A stretch of DNA of 18,100 nt from Funneliformis mosseae (taxonomy: Eukaryota > Glomeromycota > Glomeromycetes > Glomerales > Glomeraceae), in contig CAJVPP010001738.1 in NCBI GenBank assembly GCA_910592005.1, positions 1 through 18,100 of the forward strand. Reading direction: 5' to 3'. Below, piece by piece: positions 2,791-18,100 of the stretch. The first letter of the stretch is position 1. Every line of letters starts with the position of its first letter. The translations under genes and the position numbers were made by a program. The notes beneath the pieces are model-generated. The model searched no databases. It saw nothing but the letters and a program-made list of their open reading frames with translations, and was not told the DNA's origin.

Positions 2791-4594
2791 ATGATATTAA
2801 GTTATAAAAAGTAAAAGTATTCTTTGAAAATAAAACAATATTTGATAATTTCTAAAATAATAAAGAGACTAGTACCTATTAAGATAATGTTAAATGATGA
2901 GAAACAATATAGAGAAAAGATTGAAGATATATTTAAAAATCTACCCAAAAATTTTATAATTTTATTATTTAAGATATTTGTAATTTAAAAGATAATACTA
3001 TTATATCTATAATAGTATATTAATATTTTTTTTGATTGATAATAATTTAGGTTACTGCTATAAGTATAAGAAAGTTCTTAATAGATTATTTAAATTATAT
3101 GAAATTTCTGATTTTTATATAAACAACATAAATAATGAGAATATAAATAAAATGAACCTAAATATAGAAACGAGAATGAAAGAGATTTCTTACTAATTGA
3201 ATCTAAATTTGTAAAAAATTTAAAAAATATTTCCATATACATTAGTATACTGTAAATGAATCTAATTATAATAATGTAATTGATAAATATTTATAAGACT
3301 AAAATCTTGAACTTTATACTTTATTTTGCATGATAGCTTATATTATATCTAATATTATAATAAAAAACTTTTCATTATTATAAAAAAATTTAATTATTTT
3401 TCATATAAGAGTAAGTGGATAATATTTAATCTTATATTTGAGTTAAAAATTACATGATCTTATGAAATAAAAAGTTTTTGATTTATGATAATAAAGAAGT
3501 TTTTTGTATATATAACATTTGCAGTATATGTATTATATATAATAATCACATTATATATATATTTTTAAAGGTAGAATTACAATATGATCAATCTACTAAT
3601 AAAACTAGTAAGAAAAAGAATATTATATTCATTATATGAAATGTCTTATGAGTTATAACTATTTTTTTGCTTAAATGTTTTAATATATATATTTATCACG
3701 TAACTTTGAAAAACTGCTTTTTAAATATATATTATACATGCTTATTATGATAATTTAATTTGTAAAACAGATCTCAGAATGAATATATTACCCTATTAAC
3801 ATTAGACTTTCTAATATTATACATTTATATTATTATTCTGATTTTTTATCCTTTTTTGCAAATACAATAAAATAGGGGTAACACATTTTAAGTAATTACT
3901 ATTATGATCAAATTTTTGTGATATGATCGTTTAAAATATATTCTAAAAGTCTTATCAATTTTAGATCTATTGTAAATTATATAAAAAGATCCTACTTTCA
4001 GTTGATAAATCTTTTTACTGTCTTATATAAATATAAACAAAATCCTTTTTTCTTAAATTCAGAAAAAAGAAACAAATAATAACTATATATTACTCTGCAA
4101 CTTAAAATAAAAAATAACTTTTTTCTTTTATAGATTAAAGATTAAAAAAAAAGCAAAAATAGTAAGTGTGAATTAGAAAAATTATTTTTTTACTTTAGTT
4201 ACTAACCTTTTAAATTTATACTATAGATTTAAAATTTTTTTCTCTGTAAAATTTTTTTGTAAGAAATAGTCTGTGCAGATATAATAATATAAATGTATAA
4301 AAATTCTGTAGATATAGATTAAAAATCTAATATGATAAAAGAATTGAGAATGAGAATCACATAATTAGCAATAAAAGTAGAAACAAATTAATTATATGTA
4401 AATGTGAGGGAATAAAGAAATAACTTGATATTGAAACTCATATTAAATAGTTTAGGATTTGTGTACTTCCTTTCTCTTTTGATAGTACTATTATTTTATT
4501 CATTATGATTAATTATATATCTAAACAATCAATAAAATTTTACTATTTCTTAATTTTCATAAGATGCAAATGTATTGTAGTATAGGATAATATA

Positions 4595-5815
4595 CAGTGC
4601 ATGATGAAAGTTTTCAGAATTATATTTTTATTTATTATACTTTAAAAAATAACTTGAAAATACATAAAATTTAAAATTATATATTTCATTATATAATGAA
4701 AAAAATATTAAGCTAAATCAATAGCTTAGCTTATTGCTATTTCTCTTAATTATTTATTTTAATTGTTTTGGCATACTACAAACTAAATTAAAAAGAATTT
4801 TAGGTTTGATTCTCTTTCACTCTTTTTAATTACATTAATAAAAACATCTATAGTAATTAATTTTTTTAATTATAAGATTGTTGACCTTATTTTTCACACG
4901 TTCTTTATAATTGATCATAAATTCTTAATCAGATTTAAATTTAGGTTATTCAATAACCAATTTAATAATCTCAAATATCTTTCAAAAAAAAGTTTTTTAG
5001 TTTTCTTGACTGTGTGTTTAGGGTCATTATTCTGTTAGAAAACTCAATATTTTTCTATTATATATTTTGCATTTTCAAAAAGATTTTCATTTAAAATTTC
5101 TTAATAAAATTCCCATCTATAATTCCAGTAAAAAGAAGAAATTCAACTTGACCTTTTGCCAAAAATGCATCCTATGTATAAACTTAGTACAGATGTTTAA
5201 CCATAAATTTTTGTGAGTTGTATATTAGCCTTATAAAATACCTTTTGTGTATTTCAAAATATTTGAAATGTGGTCTCATCAGAAATGGCAACTTGATTTC
5301 AATTTTATCTTTAGTATTTCATTGCAAATTTTACACAATGCTGTTTATAAAGATTCATAAATAATAAAATAGACTTTGAAATTTTACAAATTTATTAAAA
5401 GTTATGAAGTTCTCTAAGTATAGTCCTTTTAGATATATTAAGGTTAGGATATATTTTGTTCAAATTATTTGCAAATTCAGCATATGTTGAAAATTTATTT
5501 TTTGAAATAAGCTTTTCAAGGTGACATTATTTTCTTAAAGAAAGCTTTCTTGGTCTTTCTGACTAAGGCAAATCTTTTATAGAACCACTTTTTTTAGTTT
5601 TTTGATATAGTCATATATAATAGAAAGTATAGAAAGTAGAATAGAAATTATTTATGCAAAGCTTTAGTATTATAAATTCTTTATTTTTACAAAATTATTA
5701 TAACAATTTAGTGTTATTCTCGTGTAATATAAACTATGATAAATTTGATATAAAAATTGATCAATATAAATGAAGTCTAAATAAATATGATAATCACATC
5801 TAAAAATGGTTACTG
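4595..5815 (-). mobile_element. degenerate Tc1/mariner DNA transposon
   Basis: The bounds are inferred. At the left, TA then CAGTG begins at 4593-4595. At the right, TACTG (expected CACTG with one C-to-T change) ends at 5815 and is followed by TA at 5816-5817. The ~1.2 kb between matches the size of a Tc1-family element, and the interior encodes a transposase remnant on the minus strand. Beyond the outer few bases the two ends do not match well, so the terminal repeats are either badly decayed or wrongly placed on the right. Confidence 0.6.
4718..5682 (-). pseudogene. Tc1/mariner transposase pseudogene
   Basis: Tc1-family transposases cut and paste their element by DDE chemistry after binding terminal repeats through helix-turn-helix domains. 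On the minus strand I can read, in order, a helix-turn-helix region ending SGSIKDLP then ERPRKLS, a second HTH (KFSTYAEFANNL...SKRTILREL), the first catalytic block SDETTFQ (Asp codon 5278-5280), the block NNDPKHT, the block LNLNLIKNL, and a C-terminal SMPKQL typical of the family. Two of three catalytic acids are gone: the Asp expected before NDPKHT is Asn (5029-5031), and the Glu expected before NL is Lys. Trp after NL is a TGA, and several Gln positions are TAA/TAG. All fit G-to-A or C-to-T change. The original start is not visible. Family assignment is secure; activity is excluded. Confidence 0.85.
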
Positions 5816-5817
5816 TA

Positions 5818-7655
5818 TAGTCATGTAAAATAGTTATTTAATAGATTATATATTGCAGGAAAAAATTATGATTTTTTATATCAAATTTTATTATGATAAT
5901 TTTTATTGTACATTATATGTAAATAGACTTCTGTTTTTTATTAGCTAAAATAAATGAATGATAATATACTTTCTAAAATTAAAAGTTTATATCTTAGAGC
6001 TAGTTTATGCTAGATCTATTAATGTAAAAAGTTGTGAAAAATATCACAACCACAACTACTTCAAAAGCAGAGGTTATTAAGTAAGCAAAAGCCTTCAAGA
6101 TATAAAAGTTATAGTATTCCTTGACAAAAGGGCTATATAGTGAGATAACAGTTATGATAAAGTATTCAAAAATATATAGTGGTAAATCTCAAAATATATA
6201 TATGAAATATATATTCATAATTCTAATAAAAATTATGTTTAAATTTTTAAATTTTAGGTAAAATTATTAAAAGTAAACATATATAAAAATAATTTACAAA
6301 AAAATTAACTTATTTATGATTAGTTTCTAATTTATCTATAACTATAAGAAAAAATGGTAAAGTATTAGAATAGGTGTGTTCTAGATTTTATTTGCAAAAC
6401 TTTGATATATAATATTTTCTTGAATTTTATGTAAATATTTTTTAATGATAATTATTATTTGCAGAATAAAGAATTAATTAATTATCTGTAGAAATATCTT
6501 TATCAAAAAAATAAAGAGGCTATTTGTCAGATGATGATGATGAGAATTCATTTTTTAACTTTAAAATAGTATCTATTTTGTTTATAAATATTTTTTATAA
6601 TGAATGTTCATATTCTATTTTAAATAAATTAAATAAATTGATTGAATCAAATGTATCTATAAAGAAAGTTAAAGATAAAAGGCTAATAACTAAAATAATA
6701 ATACATCACTCAAAACATTATAAATAATACTCTAAAATATATTAATTACATATTTTATTAGATAATAAGCTTATTTATAATTAAATAGACGTGTTAAACT
6801 ACAAATAAGATGAAATAGAGAGTAATTCTATATCAATTGAAATGATAAATTTTTATAATACAGATTGTATAAAATATTTTCTTTCTAATTATAAAATATT
6901 TATTGTAAATCAACTTTAAAATAAGATAAAGACAATAAATTTTACAATTTTATACTTACAGTTTAAAGAATAATATAGAATAATCTCTATTTAAAGTTTT
7001 AATATTCTTATAAGTATAATAGAACCTTTAGTAATGTTTATTAAAATTTATCAAGATTTTATTCTAATTATTTTTTATTTTATAAAAATAAAACTGAAAT
7101 ACTTAAACATGTTTAGTATATCATATTAAGTAATAATTAATTTTAACTTTTATAAATTTTATAAAATTTAAAAATACATTATGTATTGAAATAAAATTAC
7201 ACATATTAGCTAATTAATACAATAAGAGATTAAATATTAGCTAGAAGTAAGATATTAAATAAAACTTATTTTTTAAGATATTTTTATATTTAAAAGAATA
7301 TTTAAAAATAATGTTATTATAATTATAGGTTATATATTTGATATTGATAGTACTTTTTTTCAAATAAAATTATTGAATATTTACGTATTTGATTATCTAA
7401 AGATGACTTTAAAAAGGCAATTTGCATTAGATATAGTAAAGCAATAGAATTATCAGATTATCTTCAAATTGATAATTAAATTAAGTTTTCAATATAATAA
7501 CAATTTGTTTATGTTGAAAATTCTTCAGATAGTTCTAATACTTTAAAAATAATTAATAATAATAATAATAATCAATATCAAAATTTCACTGATAAAATAT
7601 AATTATTTATTAGTTTATTTATTTAATTTCTATTTCTTATTCTTTAAATTATTTA
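5818..7655. other. AT-rich spacer without recognisable genes
   Basis: Same composition as the left part of the window. A 7-bp inverted repeat (GTTGTGA at 6031-6037, TCACAAC at 6044-6050) is followed by a second CACAAC. A short AAT/ATA microsatellite lies at about 7550-7572. A small open frame near 6524-6727 starts without ATG in an acidic GATGATGAT run and gives a low-complexity product; I do not accept it as a gene. Confidence 0.5.
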
Positions 7656-7902: not shown

Positions 7903-7936
7903 ATTGGATAACACTCTTATAAGAGTGTTATCCAAT
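7903..7936. repeat. perfect 34-bp palindrome at a composition boundary
   Basis: Each arm reads ATTGGATAACACTCTTA and the second is its exact reverse complement, with no spacer. It could extrude as a cruciform, bind a dimeric protein, or represent two abutting terminal inverted repeats (a collapsed miniature element). It sits where DNA of extreme A+T on the left changes to clearly more balanced DNA on the right, so it may mark a junction. Confidence 0.9.
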
Positions 7937-7980
7937 TGCGCTATAATGTTATCTAGTTATGGGTATAATATTACCTAATT

Positions 7981-8152
7981 ACTGTTTTTACTGTTCTGTG
8001 ACCATTTTATTGCTTTATTGATATCCATTTATTTTTATTGCTCTGTAGTCTTTTTATTGCTTTGTGAATATTTGCTTAATTTTATTGCTCTATCCTATTT
8101 TTATTACCTTCTAGCTATCCATTTATTTTCATTGCTTTGTGGCTTTTTTGTG
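7981..8152 (+). repeat. degenerate iteron-like array built on ATTTTTATTGCTCTGT
   Basis: About seven imperfect units of 20-25 bases follow head to tail, each with a T-run, then ATTGCT (or ACTGTT, ATTACC), often followed by CTGTG or CTATCC. Examples are at about 8005-8016, 8033-8047, 8051-8066, 8079-8092 and 8126-8142. It lies about 1 kb upstream of a gene whose product resembles origin-binding helicases. An origin or control role is inference; it may be simple tandem DNA. Confidence 0.6.
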
Positions 8153-8460
8153 ATCAAGATGCTAGGCTAGTATTGATTGCTAAAAATCATGTTGTGATCA
8201 GGTGGCGCAGTTAATTTGTGGATCAGATTTTGGTCAGCACTATGGCATAATTTCTGGCCGATCTTTAGGGCGGAATATCTTGGCTTCCTGTGATTGTTTT
8301 CATGCAGTTTTGTAGTCGTTTGAAAGAGGACGTTGAGAGCTTTCCGATGATGCTAAGATCATATGGATCAGATACCTAGATGCCGAGTTATTGCGTCTCA
8401 AATTTTTGAAAAAAATATGGATTAGTGCTGGCCGAAATTAATGAAATTTACTGTGCCAAT

Positions 8461-8466
8461 CACGTG
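8461..8466. promoter_or_regulatory. CACGTG E-box motif
   Basis: A perfect CACGTG palindrome lies within AATCACGTGTTC in the repeat-rich leader. Fungal bHLH proteins bind such sites, but one hexamer of this kind can arise by chance. Confidence 0.2.
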
Positions 8467-8492
8467 TTCAGTTTCTCAGGCACTTTCCCGTC

Positions 8493-8525
8493 ACTTTTAA
8501 GTAACTTTTGAGTAACTTTTGAGAG
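8493..8525 (+). repeat. three tandem 11-bp units, ACTTTTGAGTA
   Basis: The units at 8493-8503, 8504-8514 and 8515-8525 read ACTTTTAAGTA, ACTTTTGAGTA and ACTTTTGAGAG. The exact 11-base spacing places them on one face of the helix, which suits a repeated protein-binding site. Confidence 0.7.
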
Positions 8526-8590
8526 TTTGGTTTAGTGATCAGTTGGTTAGAGAATCGAAGGTGTGATAGTCATTATTATGGCCAGTCCAT

Positions 8591-8768
8591 TTGATTGCCA
8601 GATAAGGCACAAAGTGCCAAATTTGCAATCCATCTATTTGCTAAAGATGTGTTGCAATCCATTCATTTACTTTTTGATTGCTGGTAAGGCACAAAGTGCT
8701 GATGTTGTACCATTCTTGCAATCCCGTTCATGACCATTTTGATTGCTGAGGATGAGACAAGAAGTGCC
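8591..8768 (+). repeat. three spaced copies of TTGATTGC...GGCACAAAGTGCC
   Basis: The copies are at 8591-8618, 8674-8700 and 8739-8768; the third is weaker. Each begins TTGATTGC and ends near AGTGCC/AGTGCT. The first contains the palindrome-like GGCACAAAGTGCC. Between and after them TTGCAATCC occurs at 8623-8631, 8652-8660 and 8716-8724, so GATTGC is repeatedly faced by its reverse complement GCAATC. The core ATTGC is shared with the array at 7981-8152. This layered arrangement looks like a set of binding sites in a leader or origin. Confidence 0.75.
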
Positions 8769-8861
8769 GAATTGGTTTAGAATTTACAGCTTTCATAACC
8801 TTTTTTCATGTATTCTCCTGAACCTTTCTGTCTTACCAACCTCTTTTTTGCCTATCACTTG

Positions 8862-8924
8862 GTGACCCACTCAAGTATAACTTCTTTTTTCTTTTCTATA
8901 TATAATTCTGCTTGAGTGGGTCAC
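8862..8924. repeat. 14-bp perfect inverted repeat with 35-bp loop
   Basis: GTGACCCACTCAAG at 8862-8875 is answered by its reverse complement at 8911-8924. The loop is pyrimidine-rich and contains a TATA-like TATATAA. It could be a recombinase or helicase binding site, a hairpin in the leader transcript, or one end of the element. No second copy is seen downstream of the recombinase gene. Confidence 0.85.
8897..8903 (+). promoter_or_regulatory. TATA-like box upstream of the primase-helicase
   Basis: TATATAA follows a CT-rich tract (8881-8895), an arrangement common in fungal promoters. It lies about 240 bases before the inferred start at 9141 and inside the loop of the 8862-8924 inverted repeat. 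Function is inferred from position only. Confidence 0.3.
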
Positions 8925-9140
8925 TATTTTTTCGCTTGTTTTTAGCTTCTAAGCCTTGTTCCTGCATAATACTACTTCAGAATATTATTGCATTGATTGC
9001 TTTGAAGTATTATTTAGTATATTTATTGCATACTTACACTAGTAATCTGATTAGAAGCCAGAATGGTTTATACTTTTTTATTTTGAAGGTTTGGGAAATT
9101 TACATATAATTTTATACTTATTATTTCCATACATTGTATC

Positions 9141-12100
9141 ATGCTTGCATAAAAAAAGCCTGGGCCTTACCCTAAAATAATAAATGATGCAACTAGGCTC
9201 TTCTCTGATTTAGCAGACCTCAATTATAAGCCTGATTACAATGATCATATGTATTTTCAATATTTGTTCAATAATAAAAATGATATTTCTCTTCTAGGAG
9301 CTTATCATCCTAAAGAGATTTATTTAAAATATATAGTTCGAGTGTCAGGAAAGGGTTTTACAGTAGTTGATCATCCATCTGAAATTTATGGGATCTCCGA
9401 TACTCACGAGTGCATTGATGGGAATCTGCCTTTCTGCCTGATTTTAGATATTGATATGAGGCAGAACCCTGATCCTATAAATCTTGAACTCCCTTCTTTA
9501 GATGAAAGTAAAATTTCTCGTGAAGATTTATTATCCAGAATCTTAATTGCCTGCGCTGATATCTTATATTTTGACTTAAAACATTTTGCAATATTAGATG
9601 CTTTTGCCTTAGCCAGTTCGTCTAATTCTGATAAATGTAGCTGGCATATCATATATAAATATGCACAGTTCGTTGACTACAGAGATCTTAGAGGATTTGT
9701 GAAAAAAGTTGCTGATAGGGTTGAGAAACCATATTCTAAATTTATTGACCTTGGGCTTTATAAATCACATTTTAGTCTTCGGCTTCTTAGATTGGTAAAG
9801 GAAAATAGAGTTAAAAGACCTGCGGTTTCTTCAGTTAAACAAGGATATCGCAAGCTAGAAGATTACTTAGTTCAATTTAAATCTGATTATTCCAAAATCT
9901 GGCCACAGACCTTTTCTCCTGAAAAGCTAGAAAAGGATGAATTTCAACCTATCGAAAATGAAACCACCTTAAGCAAGAGAGCTAGTTTAGTTACAGTAAA
10001 ATATGAGTGGCTTGAAATTGGCATATTAGAAAGGGATTTGTTAACTTCCAAGCAAAGTCATATGAAACGTGTCCTATTTGCGAAATCAAATATGAAAGGG
10101 ATCAGTTATATAGTTTTCTTCTTAGAATTGGATGTTTTGTACTTAGATGCTATCAGCAGAAACAATACAAACCTGATCATAAAGGATTGATGTTTAAGGA
10201 AGCATCAGATATAATTAAGCTGAAAGAAATACCTAAACAAAAAATTGTTGATAGACTGGCCAATGCCATAGCAAAACCACATCCTCTTGTAGAGTTACCA
10301 GGGAAAGTTATTAATATTAAAAAGCTAAAAGATGCCTCTGAATCATATCCTAATTTCTTGAGTTCTGAAAAAACTACCACACTAATTCGTTCATCTCTGA
10401 CAACATGAAAAACTACTACGTTGAGAGAGATTATTATGGCATTAAAAGATAAAGTGTATGATATTTCTTCTTTACCATACTTTATTTGGATCTCTTACTG
10501 AAAATCTCTCAATAATGAATCAAAAGCCAAACTTGATTTGTTAAAAGCATCTGGCTTTTGAATTTGCAATTACTAAAATATGCAAGGAGACTTATCTATA
10601 AATGAGTGGGATATTATCATAGTATAGGTTGAAAGTCTTTTTCGTGTCAAATTCACAGCCCGTCCTTTTGTGGCTATTCTTGATGAAGCTAATGCTATTA
10701 TATGCTAAATGTCCAGCAGTACAAATGCACAAGAATCTGAGAATACATTGCGTGATATTTTAAGATTTGCAAGATATGTAGTCACAATAGATGCCTTTGC
10801 GAATAAATCAACATTAGCATTCCTTAAAACATATCGTGATGAAGATATTTGTATAATTGATAATAGATACCAGTCTCATATGGGTAAGACAGTTGAAATT
10901 CTTTATGATCTGAATAGTGGAACTGAAGCCATACGAATAGGATGTGAACTTTTAAAACAGGAAAAACGTGTGGCATTTATATCTACAGGAGCAGTAATGG
11001 CTAGAGCTTTAGTAGAAAAGGCATCAAAATTAGTAAAACCTGATAATTCACCTATCAGAGCACGTGTTTATTATGAAGACATGGATGGGAAATAGCGACA
11101 AAAAGCCTTTTCTGATATTAATGTCGCTTGAAGCAAGCTTGACTGTATAGCTTATACAAATACAGTAGAAGCGGAAATATCATTTGAGGTTACAGGTCAC
11201 TTTGATATAGTTATAGCTATTACAAATATCGCTACTCCAGTTCATGTCGAAGCTCTTGCACAAATACTTTACCGAATTTGTGATTGTCCTCGTCATATGA
11301 TTTCTATATTCTATCAGAAAAATTCTAACGAACTTTTTCGCCTACCAGGTCGTAAAAATATTTGGGCAGAATTTACTAGTGCTCAGCCTAATAACTTACC
11401 TATAGCAATAAAAGATCATCGTAAATGGGATAACAATATCATTTCTTATAAAATTGATGAATCTCCAGCTGTAATAACATTTATTGAAGTTGAGTATCAG
11501 AAATGCCTTTCTGTAAGATTCTTTATTGAGAAGCTTTGTAGTCTTATAGCCAGTACTGGCGCTTCTCTTCAGCTAACAAAAATAGATGAGAGCTGAAAAG
11601 TTATAGAGAATCATAAAAAAGTCCGCAATGAGGTTAGGGTTGAAGCATTAGTTATCAAAGAAACAGATTTTAATGCAGTTGTTACTTTCAGGAATCTTGA
11701 TCCTGAAGAAGCTGAAAATCTTAAGTTTGACCAAGAGCGCTCTATTCCAAATACTATGGCACTTAAATATTTCTATATGTGAAATATTTATGGTAAAGAT
11801 ATGGATAATAAGATTTGGGATAATCTTTGTAATAAAAAGTTTGTCAACCATTTCAGTTCGTCTGAACTTCAGAAACATTTCTTGTAGTTATCTCACTTTC
11901 GAAAGCAAGGCTATGATGAGAAAAGTGCAATGAAAGGGTTAGAGGCCAAAGATATTGCACAATAGAAAGATACCTATTATAAAGCTGGATATAATTCTGA
12001 GAAATCAGTAGCAGGAGACTTGCACAAATCATATTCAGCTAATCATTGGAAAGTTATAAGGAAACTCTTTCAAATACTAGGCTTTACCAGCATAGATGAT

Positions 12101-12471
12101 AAGCGTATTCTTTCTAATAATATAGTATCAAAGTATTCATACAATCCTGCGAGAGGTTTGTAGAAATCCTGGATCAATCCCTATTACTCTTCAGATTCAA
12201 GTCTCATGCTAAGGTAACATCAGATCTTAATTCAGCTATAAGGGCAATTAATGCTATTACTAAGAATTGGTGTGGCTATATTATAAAGATAAATAGGAAA
12301 AAAATAGGACCTAAAGAACAATGAGTTTGGGAATGTTCATATCAAATTAATCAGCAACCATATGATAGTCTTGGTTTTGGAGATAAAGGTGCACCAGAGC
12401 TTCCACCATACAGGCCGAAAATAGATAATGATATTTAGAAACTCTTTGACTCTATAAGATAGGAAAAATAA
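9141..12471 (+). pseudogene. primase-helicase pseudogene (AEP primase, zinc ribbon, origin-binding-type SF2 helicase)
   Basis: The intact ~1,100-residue protein would prime and unwind DNA to replicate its own element. ATG 9141 is in frame with the long open stretch from 9249; only TAA 9150 intervenes. The primase part has DID (residues 103-105), SWH (167-169) and D203...SLRL (Arg 214), matching AEP motifs I-III. A frameshift near 10060 enters the next frame at a zinc ribbon starting TCPIC (10067-10081), with further Cys in GCFVLRC. Helicase motifs follow: a Walker A ending KTTTL whose expected Gly codon is TGA (10406-10408), ILDEANA (Walker B), DAFAN, FISTGAVMARAL, SFEVTGHFD and QILYRICDC (motif VI with Arg changed to Cys). 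A second frameshift lies near 12140. I count 16 in-frame stops; most fit CAA/CAG to TAA/TAG or CGA/TGG to TGA. Herpesvirus UL9-like and mimivirus R1-like proteins share this helicase type. Confidence 0.85.
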
Positions 12472-12491
12472 TACTTTGGTCAGATTATTAT

Positions 12492-12947
12492 TCAGCTAGG
12501 TGTCTCGATCATGTCTGATTTCATTTTAACTTTTTTACCTACACGTCAGGCATTTTTATAAATTCTTTTATGTGTGCTACAGATTCCAGTATCAGAATAT
12601 GTTAGCTCATTACGGATAGGATATATTATTCTAGGAAAGGCATTAATATGTCTAGCGCATCCTAATTCACTCATGCATCCTTTTCCACAGATCGAACTAT
12701 TTTTCTTAATGTATTAGCAGATAAAACAACCCATACAAAGTAATTTTGATACTAATAATCTCAAAACTTCATCTTCACTTTTATTATAGATATTCAAAAA
12801 TGTATACCAATCTGCGAAGTGCCTTAATGGCAGAACATAAGCTATATCAATTTTTTCGTTCCTTTAATCGAGTAAAGAGCCATCTCTGATATTTTCTCTT
12901 TCCGAAGAAGTATAAAGGAATTTTTCGAATTGAATTTTTTCTCACAT
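12492..12947 (-). pseudogene. small cysteine-rich gene on the opposite strand, broken by stops
   Basis: I do not recognise a family. Reading the minus strand from ATG at 12947 gives about 151 residues in one frame without any frameshift, broken only by TGA, TAA, TAA and TGA at positions suited to Arg/Trp and Gln. The product starts with a charged region, then FADWYTFLNIYNKSEDEV, then a Cys-rich core: CMGCFIC, ICGKGC, ELGCARH and GICSTHKRIY. Spacing of these Cys and nearby His suggests zinc binding. It ends about 20 bases from the convergent end of the primase-helicase and starts 23 bases from the divergent start of the recombinase gene, filling the gap exactly. That fit and the non-random protein argue for a real former gene. 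It may be a small regulator or DNA-binding partner; this is inference. Confidence 0.6.
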
Positions 12948-12970
12948 AATATAACTAGATAACAGTTAGT

Positions 12971-14335
12971 ATGGATATGACTACCAAAACGGCTACCTCA
13001 AAGACCCAAAAACCTAAAGCTAATAACTTTGTATTGGTCTTAGAGCAATTCCTAGAAAAGCATAATTTGACGGCTGACTCCACCCTAGAATAATTAAGCG
13101 AACATGCTTCTGAACTGAATGCTTTACTTCCTGATTGGATGGCTCGCAGGTGCGTTAAAGTTGCTCTTACCAGAGGCACTGATAACAGATGCTCATTTAG
13201 TAAAGAGAAAATAGAGACTCTCCTGCCAGATAAAAGAAAGGGAAAGCTCACCATAGAGGAAAGGGCAAAATACTGCGTTAAGAATGGTGCTTTTGTAGAC
13301 ATTATCGCTAATCATTAGGCATTAGATCCAAAAAATAAAAATGAAAATGAAATCATTACTGATGCTTCACGTCAGTCAATATTCCATACGAAGTTAGTAG
13401 AAGGTGGTGTAGAAACTGCAATTATTGATACCTTTGCTAAAGATAAGGAACTTATTCAAGATTCTAATAAAATTCAGAAGAAACAAACTAAGAAACGAAT
13501 GGCTAATTCAGACAGAATTTCCAAACATTTCTCCTTAGCAAACGTGCAAAAGAGAATCCAGAATATGGATGTTTCTAAAATCCCTATTAGGAAGAATCTC
13601 GCAGATGTGATTGTGATATTGAGTATGAGACTTGCAGAAGTAAGATCTCTTCAGATTAATTATTATAAACTGGACCCTTCAAACATTCCAGCGTGGTATA
13701 AAGAAGGCTATTCTTGGTACTGTACAGGCTATTTAAAGAGTAAAGGAAAAAAGAAAAAAAATCCTTCTCCTCATCCCTTTTTCTCCATAGAGAAGAATCC
13801 AGAACGCGTAAAGGAATTACTCACCTGGATTTGAGATGCAATTAAGGCAGAAAAGTTGCGTGATCCTGTCTATACTGAAAGTAGAACACGTAATGCTTGG
13901 CCATTTAACGAATTCTTAAAGCAAGAGCCTTATAGAACCAAGCCTAAAAATTTAAGAGATTATGGAAGTAAACACGCTTCCAGAATTCATGGTGGTAAGA
14001 AACCAACTCCTCAACATCTTAAACTGCTTTCAAGAATTGCAATAAAGCAAGAATCAGACCACCTTGATACGGGAGACAATTATGCTATAGGCGATACAGA
14101 ATCTGAATCTGAAACTGAAACTGATTACAAAACAGAGTCAGAGGACTCCGGTTCTGAATCTGGATTAAGTGATTCTAAAGGGATTAGCCCAGTGCTGGAA
14201 ACACAGGCTTCTTCACCTATGTCTCAGATTAGGAATAGCAGTACTCAGGATCAAGCCAGAGAAAAGTCTCAAACAATGGATATGGATTTAATGTTAGCAA
14301 AAATTGATGCAATGTTAGCTGAAATTTGGAAATAG
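12971..14335 (+). pseudogene. tyrosine-recombinase-like pseudogene with acidic C-terminal tail
   Basis: Tyrosine recombinases cut and rejoin DNA through a catalytic Tyr aided by two Arg, a Lys and His. ATG 12971 opens a single 454-codon frame with three stops: TAA 13091 and TAG 13316 (both Gln-type) and TGA 13832. Residues about 1-175 form a charged, helical-looking N-terminal part. Box I is MRLAEVRSL with the expected Arg at about 220. A Lys-rich hairpin (YLKSKGKKKK) follows where the catalytic Lys lies. Box II is KNLRDYGSKHA with Arg at about 329, where Lys replaces the usual first His. The candidate nucleophile is Tyr about 371 in GDNYAIGD. The tail is Ser/Glu/Asp-rich (about 376-410) and ends in a short helix. 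The order of residues fits Crypton/DIRS-type enzymes; the fit is by eye and moderate. Confidence 0.6.
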
Positions 14336-14407
14336 ACGAGCTATGCACAGCACTTTTGGCCAGATTGTGTGATAAATATTCAGTTTATTTTTTTCAGATA
14401 TATAAAA

Positions 14408-14942
14408 ATGTTAAAAAGTGATATAGATGAAATGCTAGGTTGATTAATCAGCCCTCCCTTATTTCTCATATTTATTCAGAAAAGAATAGATTAATTAAAT
14501 CAGATAAACTATCTAGTAATAGCTAAGAAATTGACGCAAGACCGCAGGTAAATTTACTACTAAATCTATACAATATTTGCCCTTATACAATCTGGCCAAA
14601 TATGATCACACATATGATAGGGCAACTGGCCTTATCACTGTTAAAAATAAAAGACAGGATAGGATTGTAGGTGTGTTTGATTATTCTGAGCTATGTGATT
14701 ATCTGAAGTCAGGTGCTCATCATTAATATTATTTTTTGATTAAAGACTCCCTCAAATAAATTCTTTGGGATGGAAAGTATTTACCCTGCAGATTGATAGA
14801 TCAAAGGGGCGAGATTGCGCCTGAATTTTAACAAGAAACCTATATAATTAGTCTTAAATTAACATTGGATAGATTGGCACAGGAGCTAGAGTTTACACAA
14901 AAAGATGATTGTTTTTTTAAGCCAGCCAGTTCAAAGCAGTGA
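14408..14942 (+). pseudogene. unrecognised gene with two frameshifts and several stops
   Basis: No family recognised. The gene starts at ATG 14408, 72 bases after the recombinase stop. The first few codons read MLKSDIDEML, then the frame shifts near 14437 to LINQPSLISHIYSEKNRLIK and again near 14545 to a long stretch to TGA 14940. The last part includes YLPLYNLAKYDHTYDRATG, DRIVGVFDYSELCDYLKSG, ILWDGKYLPCRLIDQRGE and LDRLAQELEFTQKDD. Stops at 14524, 14724, 14757 and 14829 are all TAA and fit Gln codons. About 175 residues, soluble, mixed charge, no membrane segment or signal peptide. Its place after the recombinase suggests the same element. Function unknown. Confidence 0.5.
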
Positions 14943-14995
14943 TCATGTAATTTTATTTTTCCATTTAAAGATATAATATATAATATGCATTATGT

Positions 14996-15799
14996 ATAGC
15001 GCAATCAAGCATCTTTTATTTACCAGAACTATTAGAACAGATTTTACATTTTTTAGCGATAAATAAATCTCTCTATCCCGCTCTATATGTTTCCTGATTG
15101 TGATACAGATATAATGCTCCTATTTTATGGAGACACATTAAGCTAAAGGGAAATGAAGTAGATGATAAATTTCGATTGGAAAGATTTTTAAAAATAGTAC
15201 CTGGAGGAGAAAGAAAATCAGTTTATAACCCGAAACTAACTCATCTTAAAATAACACACTACCCTTCACTTTCAAATAAAAAAATTAAAAGTATTGTATA
15301 CACATTCCCGAATATAATTCATTTAGATTTTGAAGGAAGTACAGACTGTACAGGTAAAGTTCTAAAGCTAATAGCAGAATTATACCCAAATTTGGAGTAT
15401 CTTAATATATCTAATTTAGGCAGGGGATTTTGGCCAAAAAATGATATAGGTCTAACTGCAATCGCAAATTTATGTCATAAATTAGAATGTCTAAATATTT
15501 TTAAACACACAGAATTTTCTGAAATATCAATTTGTAATATTATTCGTTCTTGCCCAAGGCTCCGACAATTCGACCTTAGCTTTTGTAAAATTACTGATAT
15601 AACTATTGAAGAAATTGCTAGATTATGTCTTAATTTAAAATTTCTTAATCTGAGGGGGTGTTATAATATTAGCAAAAAAGCTGTGAATCAGCTAAATCCA
15701 GATATTCACGTAGAGGATTTTGTGAAAACTTTAATGCCTCCTGATCTCATTAGAGTGGTTAGAAATCATCTTACACAGAACAATGTTGTTAGTAGATAG
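14996..15799 (+). pseudogene. F-box / leucine-rich-repeat protein, recently broken
   Basis: F-box/LRR proteins select targets for SCF ubiquitin ligases: the F-box binds Skp1 and the repeats bind the substrate. The frame begins with ATA GCG CAA at 14996, where the reading strongly suggests a lost ATG. An F-box follows (YLPELLEQILHFLAINKSLY, then VS..W-type motif and [10 protein letters not shown]). Two TGA codons (15095 and 15101) sit where Arg and Trp are expected in the F-box, so the N-terminus is dead. From about 15176 the frame is clean to TAG 15797. It shows LRRs with [32 protein letters not shown] and [14 protein letters not shown] at 15176 could only give an LRR-only product without an F-box. 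About 267 residues, near the short end for such proteins. It lies 53 bases after the preceding gene; this may be cargo or a host gene. Confidence 0.8.
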
Positions 15800-16459
15800 A
15801 TTTTAGCTTAGAGTCTTTAGAGCCTCTTAGATCTAAATATGCAAAATAATTTGCAGTAGTATTTTGATCCAGGGTTGGCTAGATCAATAGTCTGAAGTGG
15901 TGATCGTTGATCAGATTTTTTTTGCTGAGCCACATGCATATACTTCTGTATGATAAAAAATAAGTGGATCATTAATCGGGGTCTTGTATAACATATTAAT
16001 TTTTGCACATATATTCGAAAAAGAAAACATATTATCTTTTGTTCATTATTTTTTCCTCAAACAAATGTGAGAAAATGTGAAAGGAGTTCTAGTTGCAACA
16101 CAGGACCTACTGTAAAAGTAAATATTAACATCAAAAGCATATGTTATGAAGGGCTGAGGACTTTGTAATTTCGAGATCTATAAGAACTAATTACCTTTGC
16201 ATCTTTCTGGTAGATCTACATGTGAAAAGGTATGAGGATTCTGTTTACATGTGCTTTTATGAAGCTCTTAGCATCATATGACAATGCTAATCGCGTCTCA
16301 TATCTCCTTAACTTTTTCCCAGCAAGATGTAAAGCATATAAGAGTGTGGAAGTTCAGCTAACCTTTTCGCAAAATAAGGTTTGTATGTGCTAGAAGTTAT
16401 GTATTGTATGTATGGAGCAAGTTTTTTTTACAATGGATTCTTATATTTAAGAAAACAAG
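15800..16459. other. noncoding stretch after the F-box/LRR gene
   Basis: Moderate A+T, no acceptable frame on either strand and no RNA gene seen. GATC-containing motifs cluster at 15864-15970, including an inverted TTGATC/GATCAA pair (15864-15869, 15882-15887). A minus-strand frame over 15817-16008 is short and without protein character. Confidence 0.5.
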
Positions 16460-16748
16460 ATGTCTTCCATGGCTGACACGATAAAAGGATGGGAAACTGA
16501 AAGACTTATCAGCTTTTTACGAAGCGATTCTAATTTTGAAAGCTTAAAACTTGACAATAACTTTTTTACAAAGCTTCATGATGTCAACGGAGCAATTAAC
16601 CAGTCATAATGAAGTCACATGAATGACGCAGTATGACGATCTCTTAATTCAGAATTCTGAAAATACTGAGAATTCTGTGAATTCTGGAAATACAGAGGAT
16701 TTGTGTAACTTTGAAGATCTTCCAAATACTGATAATAATCATAATTAA
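16460..16748 (+). pseudogene. SAM-domain-like gene start with frameshifted low-complexity tail
   Basis: ATG 16460 begins 49 residues: MSSMADTIKGWETERLISFL and then SNFESLKLDNNFFTKLH, ending at TAA 16607. The pattern W-x-T-E-x-L-I-x-F-L followed by L-x-L-x-x-x-x-F is the start of SAM-like domains common in glomeromycotan proteins. The second half of the domain is missing. A different frame overlapping the end (from about 16580, through a TGA before 16623) continues as an Asn/Ser/Glu/Thr repeat (ENTENSVNSGNTED) to TAA 16746, suggesting one frameshifted gene. At the DNA level the tail repeats GAATTCTG-AAATAC three times. A short host-gene fragment is the likeliest explanation. Confidence 0.4.
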
Positions 16749-16934
16749 ACGAAGTCTAAGAATATTTGGTGTTATACACATTCTTAATATTCTAAATTTT
16801 ATTATTATTATTATTTATTTTATATTTTTATTATTTTACGTATTCTCAATGTATTTATTTTACTTATAGTTTATTTTGCCAAATTAGTTAGTTTATAGCA
16901 TAGTAATTAGTTAGCCGTGATGAAAGAAATTTTG

Positions 16935-17026
16935 TATAAATAGATAGACTTTTTGCTTATGTTGTAAATTAACTCTTTTGCAGATTTGTAAACTCTTTTG
17001 TGAATATGAGTTTCAATATTAATAAA
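16935..17026 (+). promoter_or_regulatory. LTR-like promoter and poly(A) signal
   Basis: TATAAATA at 16935-16942 is followed about 80 bases later by AATAAA at 17021-17026. Between them lie two tandem 20-base units starting AACTCTTTTG (16971 and 16991). A close TATA box and poly(A) signal is the internal plan of a retrotransposon LTR, and a gag-like frame follows at 17291. No second LTR copy or primer-binding site is identified, so this remains a suggestion. Confidence 0.3.
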
Positions 17027-17290
17027 GGAATCAATTTAAAACCTATATCTTTCTGCCTCTTTGTGTCTTCATATAGTCTGATGTGATCTTTACACATTAT
17101 TTGTAATTGAGTTCGTCATTGAAATTCTTTAATTAAAATTGTTTATAATCTCGTCTTTCAAGTCTTCATACTTGATAGATTTGTTTAAGTTCAACGCGTA
17201 GGCCTAGTAAAGTTAAGAATTAGGCAGATCCTAACGTCTTAATCGCAGTAAGCCGTAGTTAAGAAATTTTGAGTAGACTTGATAACGTGA

Positions 17291-17443
17291 CCACCTCGAG
17301 TTGAAGAATTCCACGGTGACAATGATGAACAAATCGCTGATCATTTATTTCTCAAGCTAACCGGATGAAAATTTAAGGAATACAGAATGATATTAAGACA
17401 AGCGTTAGAACTTGAGGATTATATTAAAGATCTATGTGAGTAA
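17291..17443 (+). pseudogene. possible gag-like fragment
   Basis: The frame reads PPRVEEFHGDNDEQIADHLF then LKLTG, a TGA at 17366, and KFKEYRMILRQALELEDYI to TAA 17441. The start, VEEFHGDNDE, resembles the P-x-F-x-G-x-x-E/D opening of Ty3/gypsy Gag cores. The rest does not clearly follow the family. The last codons run into GTGAGT, which could be a splice donor. It may be an LTR-retrotransposon scrap or chance. Confidence 0.25.
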
Positions 17444-18100
17444 TTATACAAAGATGCTTTGCATAGCATTATGGTTGTATTTTATTGATGGGATTCTCAT
17501 TATTCTAATAGTTTTATTTTATAAAATCAAGATAATCGAAAAGGAGAATTAGCAATTTATCATGTGAAAGGGTTTGGTTTGAAATCAAGTGATTTCCCAA
17601 CCAGTTAGAAATTTTTTATCTATATTTGTATTATGTAAAGTGATATATTCGCAATTTTTATGTATTGTAGGCCGAGTTTCAGTAACGTTTTTTTATTTCT
17701 TAAATAAAGCATATATTACGTTCTTGTCGTAAATCTTGAAAAATACTATGTGAAATGATGCTAACTAATGCAATGCCTGTGTGATATAGATGTAACTGCG
17801 TATTGGAAAATATACGTAGTAAGAAAAGTTCTCTCAATACATATACTCGAAGCATCCTCAGATCGATATGAATAATTTACGGCTTTTATTTTTTTCCTGT
17901 ACCAAATAAACAATTCAGTCCGGTGTTTTTCCATATATGGAATTTCTAATTATGTAAATGATCAACATTCTAGAAGCTTATTAAGATCGATGGTGATACA
18001 AAATTTAAAAAAAAAATTTTTTATTAACGTTGCGATAAAAGCATATACTTTGAATTTTACCCTGCTATTTATATTGTATCTTCTGTTTCATCACTATTAG
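17444..18100. other. noncoding right end
   Basis: No believable gene on either strand. A hairpin with a 7-bp stem lies at 17581-17596 (GAAATCA/TGATTTC). A CArG-type palindrome is at 17929-17942 and an A/T homopolymer palindrome near 18001-18022. Confidence 0.5.
17929..17942. promoter_or_regulatory. perfect CArG-box palindrome
   Basis: TTCCATATATGGAA contains CC(A/T)6GG, the binding consensus of SRF/Mcm1-type MADS proteins. With no gene beside it and AT-rich surroundings, chance is plausible. Confidence 0.25.

Follow-up and report, generated by a model that had tools for sequence, protein, structure and literature searches.

A dead copy of a palindrome-tipped mobile element, a probable replicon, of arbuscular mycorrhizal fungi in the genome of Funneliformis mosseae

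The window analyzed here is the whole contig C1738 (18.1 kb), and searches were performed in the genome of 82 Mb and 4154 contigs. At positions 7903-15799 of the window lie the left and middle portions of a dead element, which belongs to a mobile family, probably of replicons, found in arbuscular mycorrhizal fungi. The element begins with a 34-bp palindrome and encodes a fusion of an AEP primase and a UL9-like helicase, a small cysteine-rich protein on the opposite strand and a recombinase-family protein; variable cargo, for example a leucine-rich-repeat (LRR) gene, comes after these. The initial annotation had described a repeat-rich leader, followed by a primase-helicase gene and a recombinase-like gene in an inactivated element. 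This description holds, and the leader (7937-9140, plus strand) is indeed rich in sequence repeats, but the small minus-strand gene had been missed.

The primase-helicase pseudogene (9183-12456) contains 14 in-frame stops and two frame changes compared to the open protein of another copy, in contig C280. Its AEP part (9141-10022, plus strand) is D5-like and shows the motifs DxD and SSSN..SWHII, and the remaining part (10022-12456, plus strand), with stops and frame changes, comprises a zinc-ribbon-like CPIC segment, read by eye, and a UL9-like (Herpes_ori_bp) helicase. AEP motifs and helicase are found together in the C280 frame of 1200 aa. The AEP part of this protein aligns with the poxvirus (vaccinia-type) D5 primase OPG117 (E 0.0044), and its helicase part scored 63.2 bits for the Pfam domain Herpes_ori_bp (cut-off 20) and matched the herpes origin-binding protein in the PDB with an E of 6e-06, which confirms both proposed domains.

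Downstream, a degenerate cysteine-rich, zinc-finger-like ORF lies on the minus strand (12516-12803), followed by the recombinase-family pseudogene on the plus strand (12977-14335), which has R..EV..L, KxxR and Y boxes, contains 3 stops between 12977 and 14140 and stays open to 14335. In C280 the minus-strand ORF is open for 139 aa and the recombinase for 397 aa. All three genes of the window copy are disrupted, the primase-helicase by 14 stops plus two frame changes and the others by 3 and 2 stops, and the copy is dead. Between related frames, dN/dS was 0.19-0.46 for the recombinase and 0.17-0.38 for the primase-helicase, and therefore these genes were under purifying selection before they decayed.

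In the alignment of the recombinase family, the R, K, R and Y residues are nearly constant. The K before R was present in 42 of 56 rows, an R-to-Y distance of 41-42 was found in 36 of 43, and no His was seen at Y-9. The KxxR motif and the R-to-Y spacing resemble those of the phage protelomerases TelN and TelK. Two AlphaFold models were used for fold comparison; one of them ranked the telomere resolvases TelK and ResT first, with weak scores, and searches with model 1 against the PDB and viral models gave no matches. At the sequence level, a match to telomere resolvases was undetectable: tblastn with two family members against phages gave none, and neither did a profile-profile comparison with protelomerases and integrases, in which the positive control also remained without a match. 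When two intact proteins were scanned with Pfam (matches up to E 1), neither DUF3435 nor another tyrosine recombinase family was among the hits. One homolog, P0245, is named Tyr recombinase domain-containing by UniRef. By spacing and fold, the recombinase-type protein appears weakly nearer to telomere resolvases than to integrases.

The window copy is one member of a real, multi-copy mobile family in this genome. With the stretch 8001-15800 as query 95 genome matches were found, with the recombinase piece 125 and with the primase piece 139, all of which are numbers of matches and not of copies. Any element gene was present in the fetched stretches of 48 contigs. In 22 of these, helicase, small ORF and recombinase could all be placed, and all 22 showed the order primase-helicase (plus), small ORF (minus) and recombinase (plus), as would be expected from the suggestion that many copies keep the same gene order. 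The order of small ORF and recombinase was kept in 25 of 25 contigs. The proposed pairing of helicase and recombinase thus holds in these 22 contigs, but in seven others the recombinase was found without the small ORF within the stretch fetched, and in at least one of them, C2797, a different gene lies upstream. The recombinase is therefore not always in the three-gene setting, at least in C2797. Related proteins from named organisms, among the matches listed (the best 120 of 159, 120 of 120 and the best 120 of 236), belong to arbuscular mycorrhizal fungi and their kin, namely Rhizophagus, Funneliformis, Gigaspora, Cetraspora, Dentiscutata, Entrophospora, Diversispora, Ambispora, Acaulospora, Paraglomus and Geosiphon; many other listed matches are unnamed metagenome proteins. 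Scans of bacterial and archaeal genomes gave no relatives.

Past the recombinase, the sequence varies from copy to copy, and copies extend for kilobases. In the window, a degenerate variable segment (14400-14940, plus strand) with a partial match in contig C1649 precedes a gene that could be identified as an LRR gene (15104-15799, plus strand; LRR_4 above cut-off). An LRR gene lies 3' of the recombinase and on the same strand in all seven contigs that have both in the fetched stretch. The end of the element had been placed at 15799, which is wrong, since two further segments also occur in other copies. The first (15951-16374, plus strand) is shared with the copy in C3953, where it follows the recombinase and the LRR gene is absent, and the second (17326-17760, plus strand) is common to many contigs, several of which have the element upstream in the same orientation. 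Between them lies a nested, solo-LTR-like repeat of 740 bp with TG..CA ends (16582-17321), which is absent from the same place in C4090 and C2297 and does not belong to the element. Two positions were rejected as the right terminus: at 17760 many matches stop, yet copies continue, and merely two subfamilies part there; position 17915 is the edge of another repeat, met again at the end of C1711.

On the left side, the terminus could be determined to the base. Position 7903, the proposed start, is the first base of a perfect 34-bp palindrome (7903-7936) with the arms ATTGGATAAC..GTTATCCAAT, whereas most fetched copies carry ACTGGATAAC..GTTATCCAGT. The palindrome pattern matched once in the window and never in 200 shuffles, and 50 sites were found in the genome compared to 0 for the reversed control. 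Left ends read at 11 loci carry the palindrome, and homology between copies begins at it and extends inward, in line with the shared boundary that had been predicted. Empty sites, which had also been predicted, were obtained for two insertions (C280 and C1158), in which the flank is a repeat with uninterrupted copies elsewhere. With these sites the left terminus is exact: the element starts with the first base of the palindrome, which opens with ACTGG in C280 and with ACTGA in C1158. The interrupted palindrome of C2993 was considered as a boundary and rejected, as an insertion that hit the CTTATAAG centre would give this arrangement.

Iterons related to GTTAYCYA and spaced 21-22 bp begin in the right arm of the palindrome (7927-7980, plus strand). 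This motif had 28 forward matches in the 11 left ends, and 27 of them were located at offsets of 22, 43, 65 or 87 from the palindrome. The outer part of the leader belongs to a terminal inverted repeat. In contig C3185, the repeat into which the C280 element is inserted carries on immediately behind a palindrome of the same variant, and the first 77 bases of C3185 are the exact reverse complement of the left end of C280, the identity being cut there by the contig end. TTAAT is present on both sides of the C280/C3185 insertion and only once in the empty sites, and we infer that the two contigs hold the two ends of one insertion, the single one from which the right end, the inverted repeats and the 5-bp target duplication are known. 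Contig C95 lacks a primase match; a palindrome in it is followed by ~240 bases that are similar to the leader. The inverted repeats may therefore be long, which would account for the breaking of contigs there. A contig with both ends of an element was not found.

The palindrome was thus seen at left ends in 11 loci, with 50 sites in total, and at the right end in one case. That palindromes mark left ends only was rejected: among 13 end matches on the minus strand for which the contig extends inward by 4 kb or more, 6 have a primase match inside and 7 have none. Such a split is expected if both ends bear the palindrome, although deletion copies would give the same split. Over the 30 bp compared, 13 of the 50 palindromes are perfect, of which 11 are of one type and 2 of another that differs from it by two positions on both arms. 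In the other 37, a total of 60 changes was counted; C>T or G>A accounts for 57, and none of the changes is paired.

It is concluded that these are inverted-repeat elements tipped with palindromes. To our knowledge, Cryptons have neither terminal inverted repeats nor target duplications. Because the C280/C3185 insertion shows inverted repeats and a 5-bp duplication, the elements are not plain Cryptons, and the initial proposal of a Crypton-like site-specific integration is not supported, the enzyme also being weakly nearer to telomere resolvases than to integrases.

The most economical single account is a linear replicon that integrates and whose ends are hairpins formed by an enzyme of the telomere-resolvase type (probability roughly 0.4), because it combines the co-varying tip palindromes, the adjoining iterons, a replication initiator and the resolvase-type spacing. 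All mechanistic steps that go further than the sequence are inferred. As an extrachromosomal molecule, the element would be linear and closed covalently by a hairpin at either end. Replication would be started by the primase-helicase at the iterons adjoining the palindrome, as UL9 initiates it at the palindromic origin of herpesviruses. Copying round the hairpin would produce head-to-head joints holding the full palindrome, and the recombinase-family enzyme might cut these about the TTATAA centre and reseal them as hairpins, like telomere resolvases. Integration would leave a whole palindrome at each end and the 5-bp target duplication. This last step is the main difficulty of the hairpin account, since we know of no telomere resolvase that integrates with a 5-bp duplication. 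More tentatively still, the family may represent a class of eukaryotic transposons with a double life, as palindrome-tipped chromosomal insertions and as self-replicating linear DNA, with hairpin telomeres formed by their own telomere resolvase and copying from the iterons by their own AEP-UL9 protein.

No other gene of the conserved block is of the recombination type, and the recombinase-family enzyme could instead act as a tyrosine transposase that excises and inserts the element without any hairpin form. Palindrome and iterons would then be symmetric binding sites of the enzyme or the helicase, in agreement with the GTTAYCYA shared by palindrome arm and iterons, and the primase-helicase would replicate an excised circle or raise the copy number. 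The UniRef name of P0245 also fits. This explanation is rather unlikely; it has to accommodate terminal inverted repeats and a target duplication, both lacking in known Cryptons, and the paired change on two arms (GGTC/GACC palindrome) would require repeated co-selection.

A retroviral-type integrase would explain the inverted repeats and the 5-bp duplication, and both the D5-like primase and the UL9-like helicase are viral in flavor. The element might be what is left of a larger virus-like one (Polinton-like, virophage-like or derived from a giant virus), in which the recombinase-family enzyme resolves or recombines the genome ends and a DDE integrase, perhaps with capsid genes, is encoded in the right part, which is incomplete in all fetched contigs. 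The extension of copies by kilobases beyond the recombinase would agree with this, as would the phaeoviruses, which according to work published in 2026 have a gene for a telomere resolvase and, in an endogenous phaeovirus, a telRL-like palindromic site (PMC13236599). We consider such an origin improbable, since no capsid, polymerase B or DDE integrase genes were seen in the stretches read, scans of viral contigs with the primase-helicase and the recombinase gave no relatives, and the downstream sequence differs between copies. Some Polintons, Polinton-like viruses and virophages possess tyrosine recombinases, and these groups resemble the element in having inverted repeats with a short target duplication (for the element, at one insertion) and an AEP/D5-type primase-helicase. 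The element differs from them by its palindromic tips and by a UL9-like helicase instead of an SF3 helicase. An ordinary inverted-repeat DNA transposon that captured the primase-helicase and the recombinase-like gene, with its transposase elsewhere in the element or genome, would fit the inverted repeats, target duplication and variable cargo, but is very improbable, because the part that stays constant, under purifying selection, is the three-gene block, which is not a captured passenger, and the terminal palindromes and iterons are left unexplained.

For the integrating hairpin replicon, the nearest known systems are the telomere resolvases, with their linear replicons, of phage N15 (TelN), phiKO2 (TelK), Borrelia (ResT) and Agrobacterium (TelA), with homologs in phaeoviruses, which share the perfect end palindrome and its 6-bp symmetric centre. 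In contrast to these replicons, the element is fungal, occupies numerous chromosomal sites, where it has a target duplication, and has inverted repeats past the palindrome and an AEP-UL9 primase-helicase; its palindrome is 34 bp compared to annotated lengths of 50 (phiKO2) and 56 bp (N15). Hairpin formation by TelA is described in one study (PMC3558466). Like herpesviruses, the element encodes a Herpes_ori_bp helicase next to a palindrome that has AT at its centre and is accompanied by repeated boxes, but the helicase is fused to an AEP primase and its putative site is at the tip. Cryptons and Starships (DUF3435 captains) are, like the element, mobile DNA of fungi that carries variable cargo and a gene of the tyrosine-recombinase type. 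The element is set apart by its inverted repeats, palindromes, target duplication and primase-helicase, and a Starship captain was not among the Pfam matches mentioned above.

If the hairpin reading is true, this would be the first fungal mobile element with telomeres in the style of bacterial phages known to us, the telomere resolvases of phages and phaeoviruses would be linked to transposons, and a route for linear replicons into and out of eukaryotic chromosomes would be shown. In open-licence papers, mostly at listing level, no description of such a fungal element was found. Helicase-primase genes of Rhizophagus were previously filtered as transposon-related and Crypton families were annotated in R. 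irregularis (PMC8647823, PMC11075540), and a 1.5-Mb endogenous virus region was found in one Rhizophagus strain (PMC10640383). About two thirds of the transposable elements of R. irregularis are given as unclassified in one of these studies (PMC11075540), and the family described here may account for some of them.

The gene upstream of the recombinase-family gene (12977-14335) is not the same in all copies of the element, since on contig C2797 of the same assembly (locus L019) it differs from the usual one. In a Cetraspora gene model (protein P0256), a DUF5906 segment of the primase/helicase type and the recombinase are joined in a single fusion, although the DUF5906 match (E-value 0.00014) falls short of the cut-off. 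Both the C2797 upstream gene and this fusion possibly represent an alternative replication module. On the downstream side, the recombinase is fused to a RING domain in a gene model of Rhizophagus clarus and to leucine-rich repeats in one of Glomus cerebriforme (together proteins P0236 and P0237), and therefore such cargo also follows the recombinase in other species. On contig C2297 (locus L071), Gag-like and aspartic-protease-like pieces, recognized by eye alone, lie between the recombinase and the leucine-rich-repeat gene.

Other repeats were also identified in the window. A TG..CA repeat of 740 bp (16582-17321), flanked by a direct repeat of 4 bp, perhaps longer, has many copies across the genome with ∼82-92% identity and is absent from the equivalent position on contigs C4090 and C2297. 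The very AT-rich left flank contains a multi-copy repeat of ∼1.3 kb (4590-5910). Of a further repeat, starting with CAGTCCGGTGTTTTTCC, only the start is within the window (17916-18100), and this part matches the terminal stretch of contig C1711 at 98% identity.

Among the 50 genomic sites of the 34-bp palindrome at the element tip (7903-7936), 57 of 60 changes were C>T or G>A, and this nearly exclusive decay is the pattern expected of methylated or RIP-like mutated repeats. On contig C2993 (locus L065), the palindrome centre is occupied by a second element, whose tip is of the CAGGGTTGGG type and adjoins CTTATAAG; this element resembles a hAT insertion.
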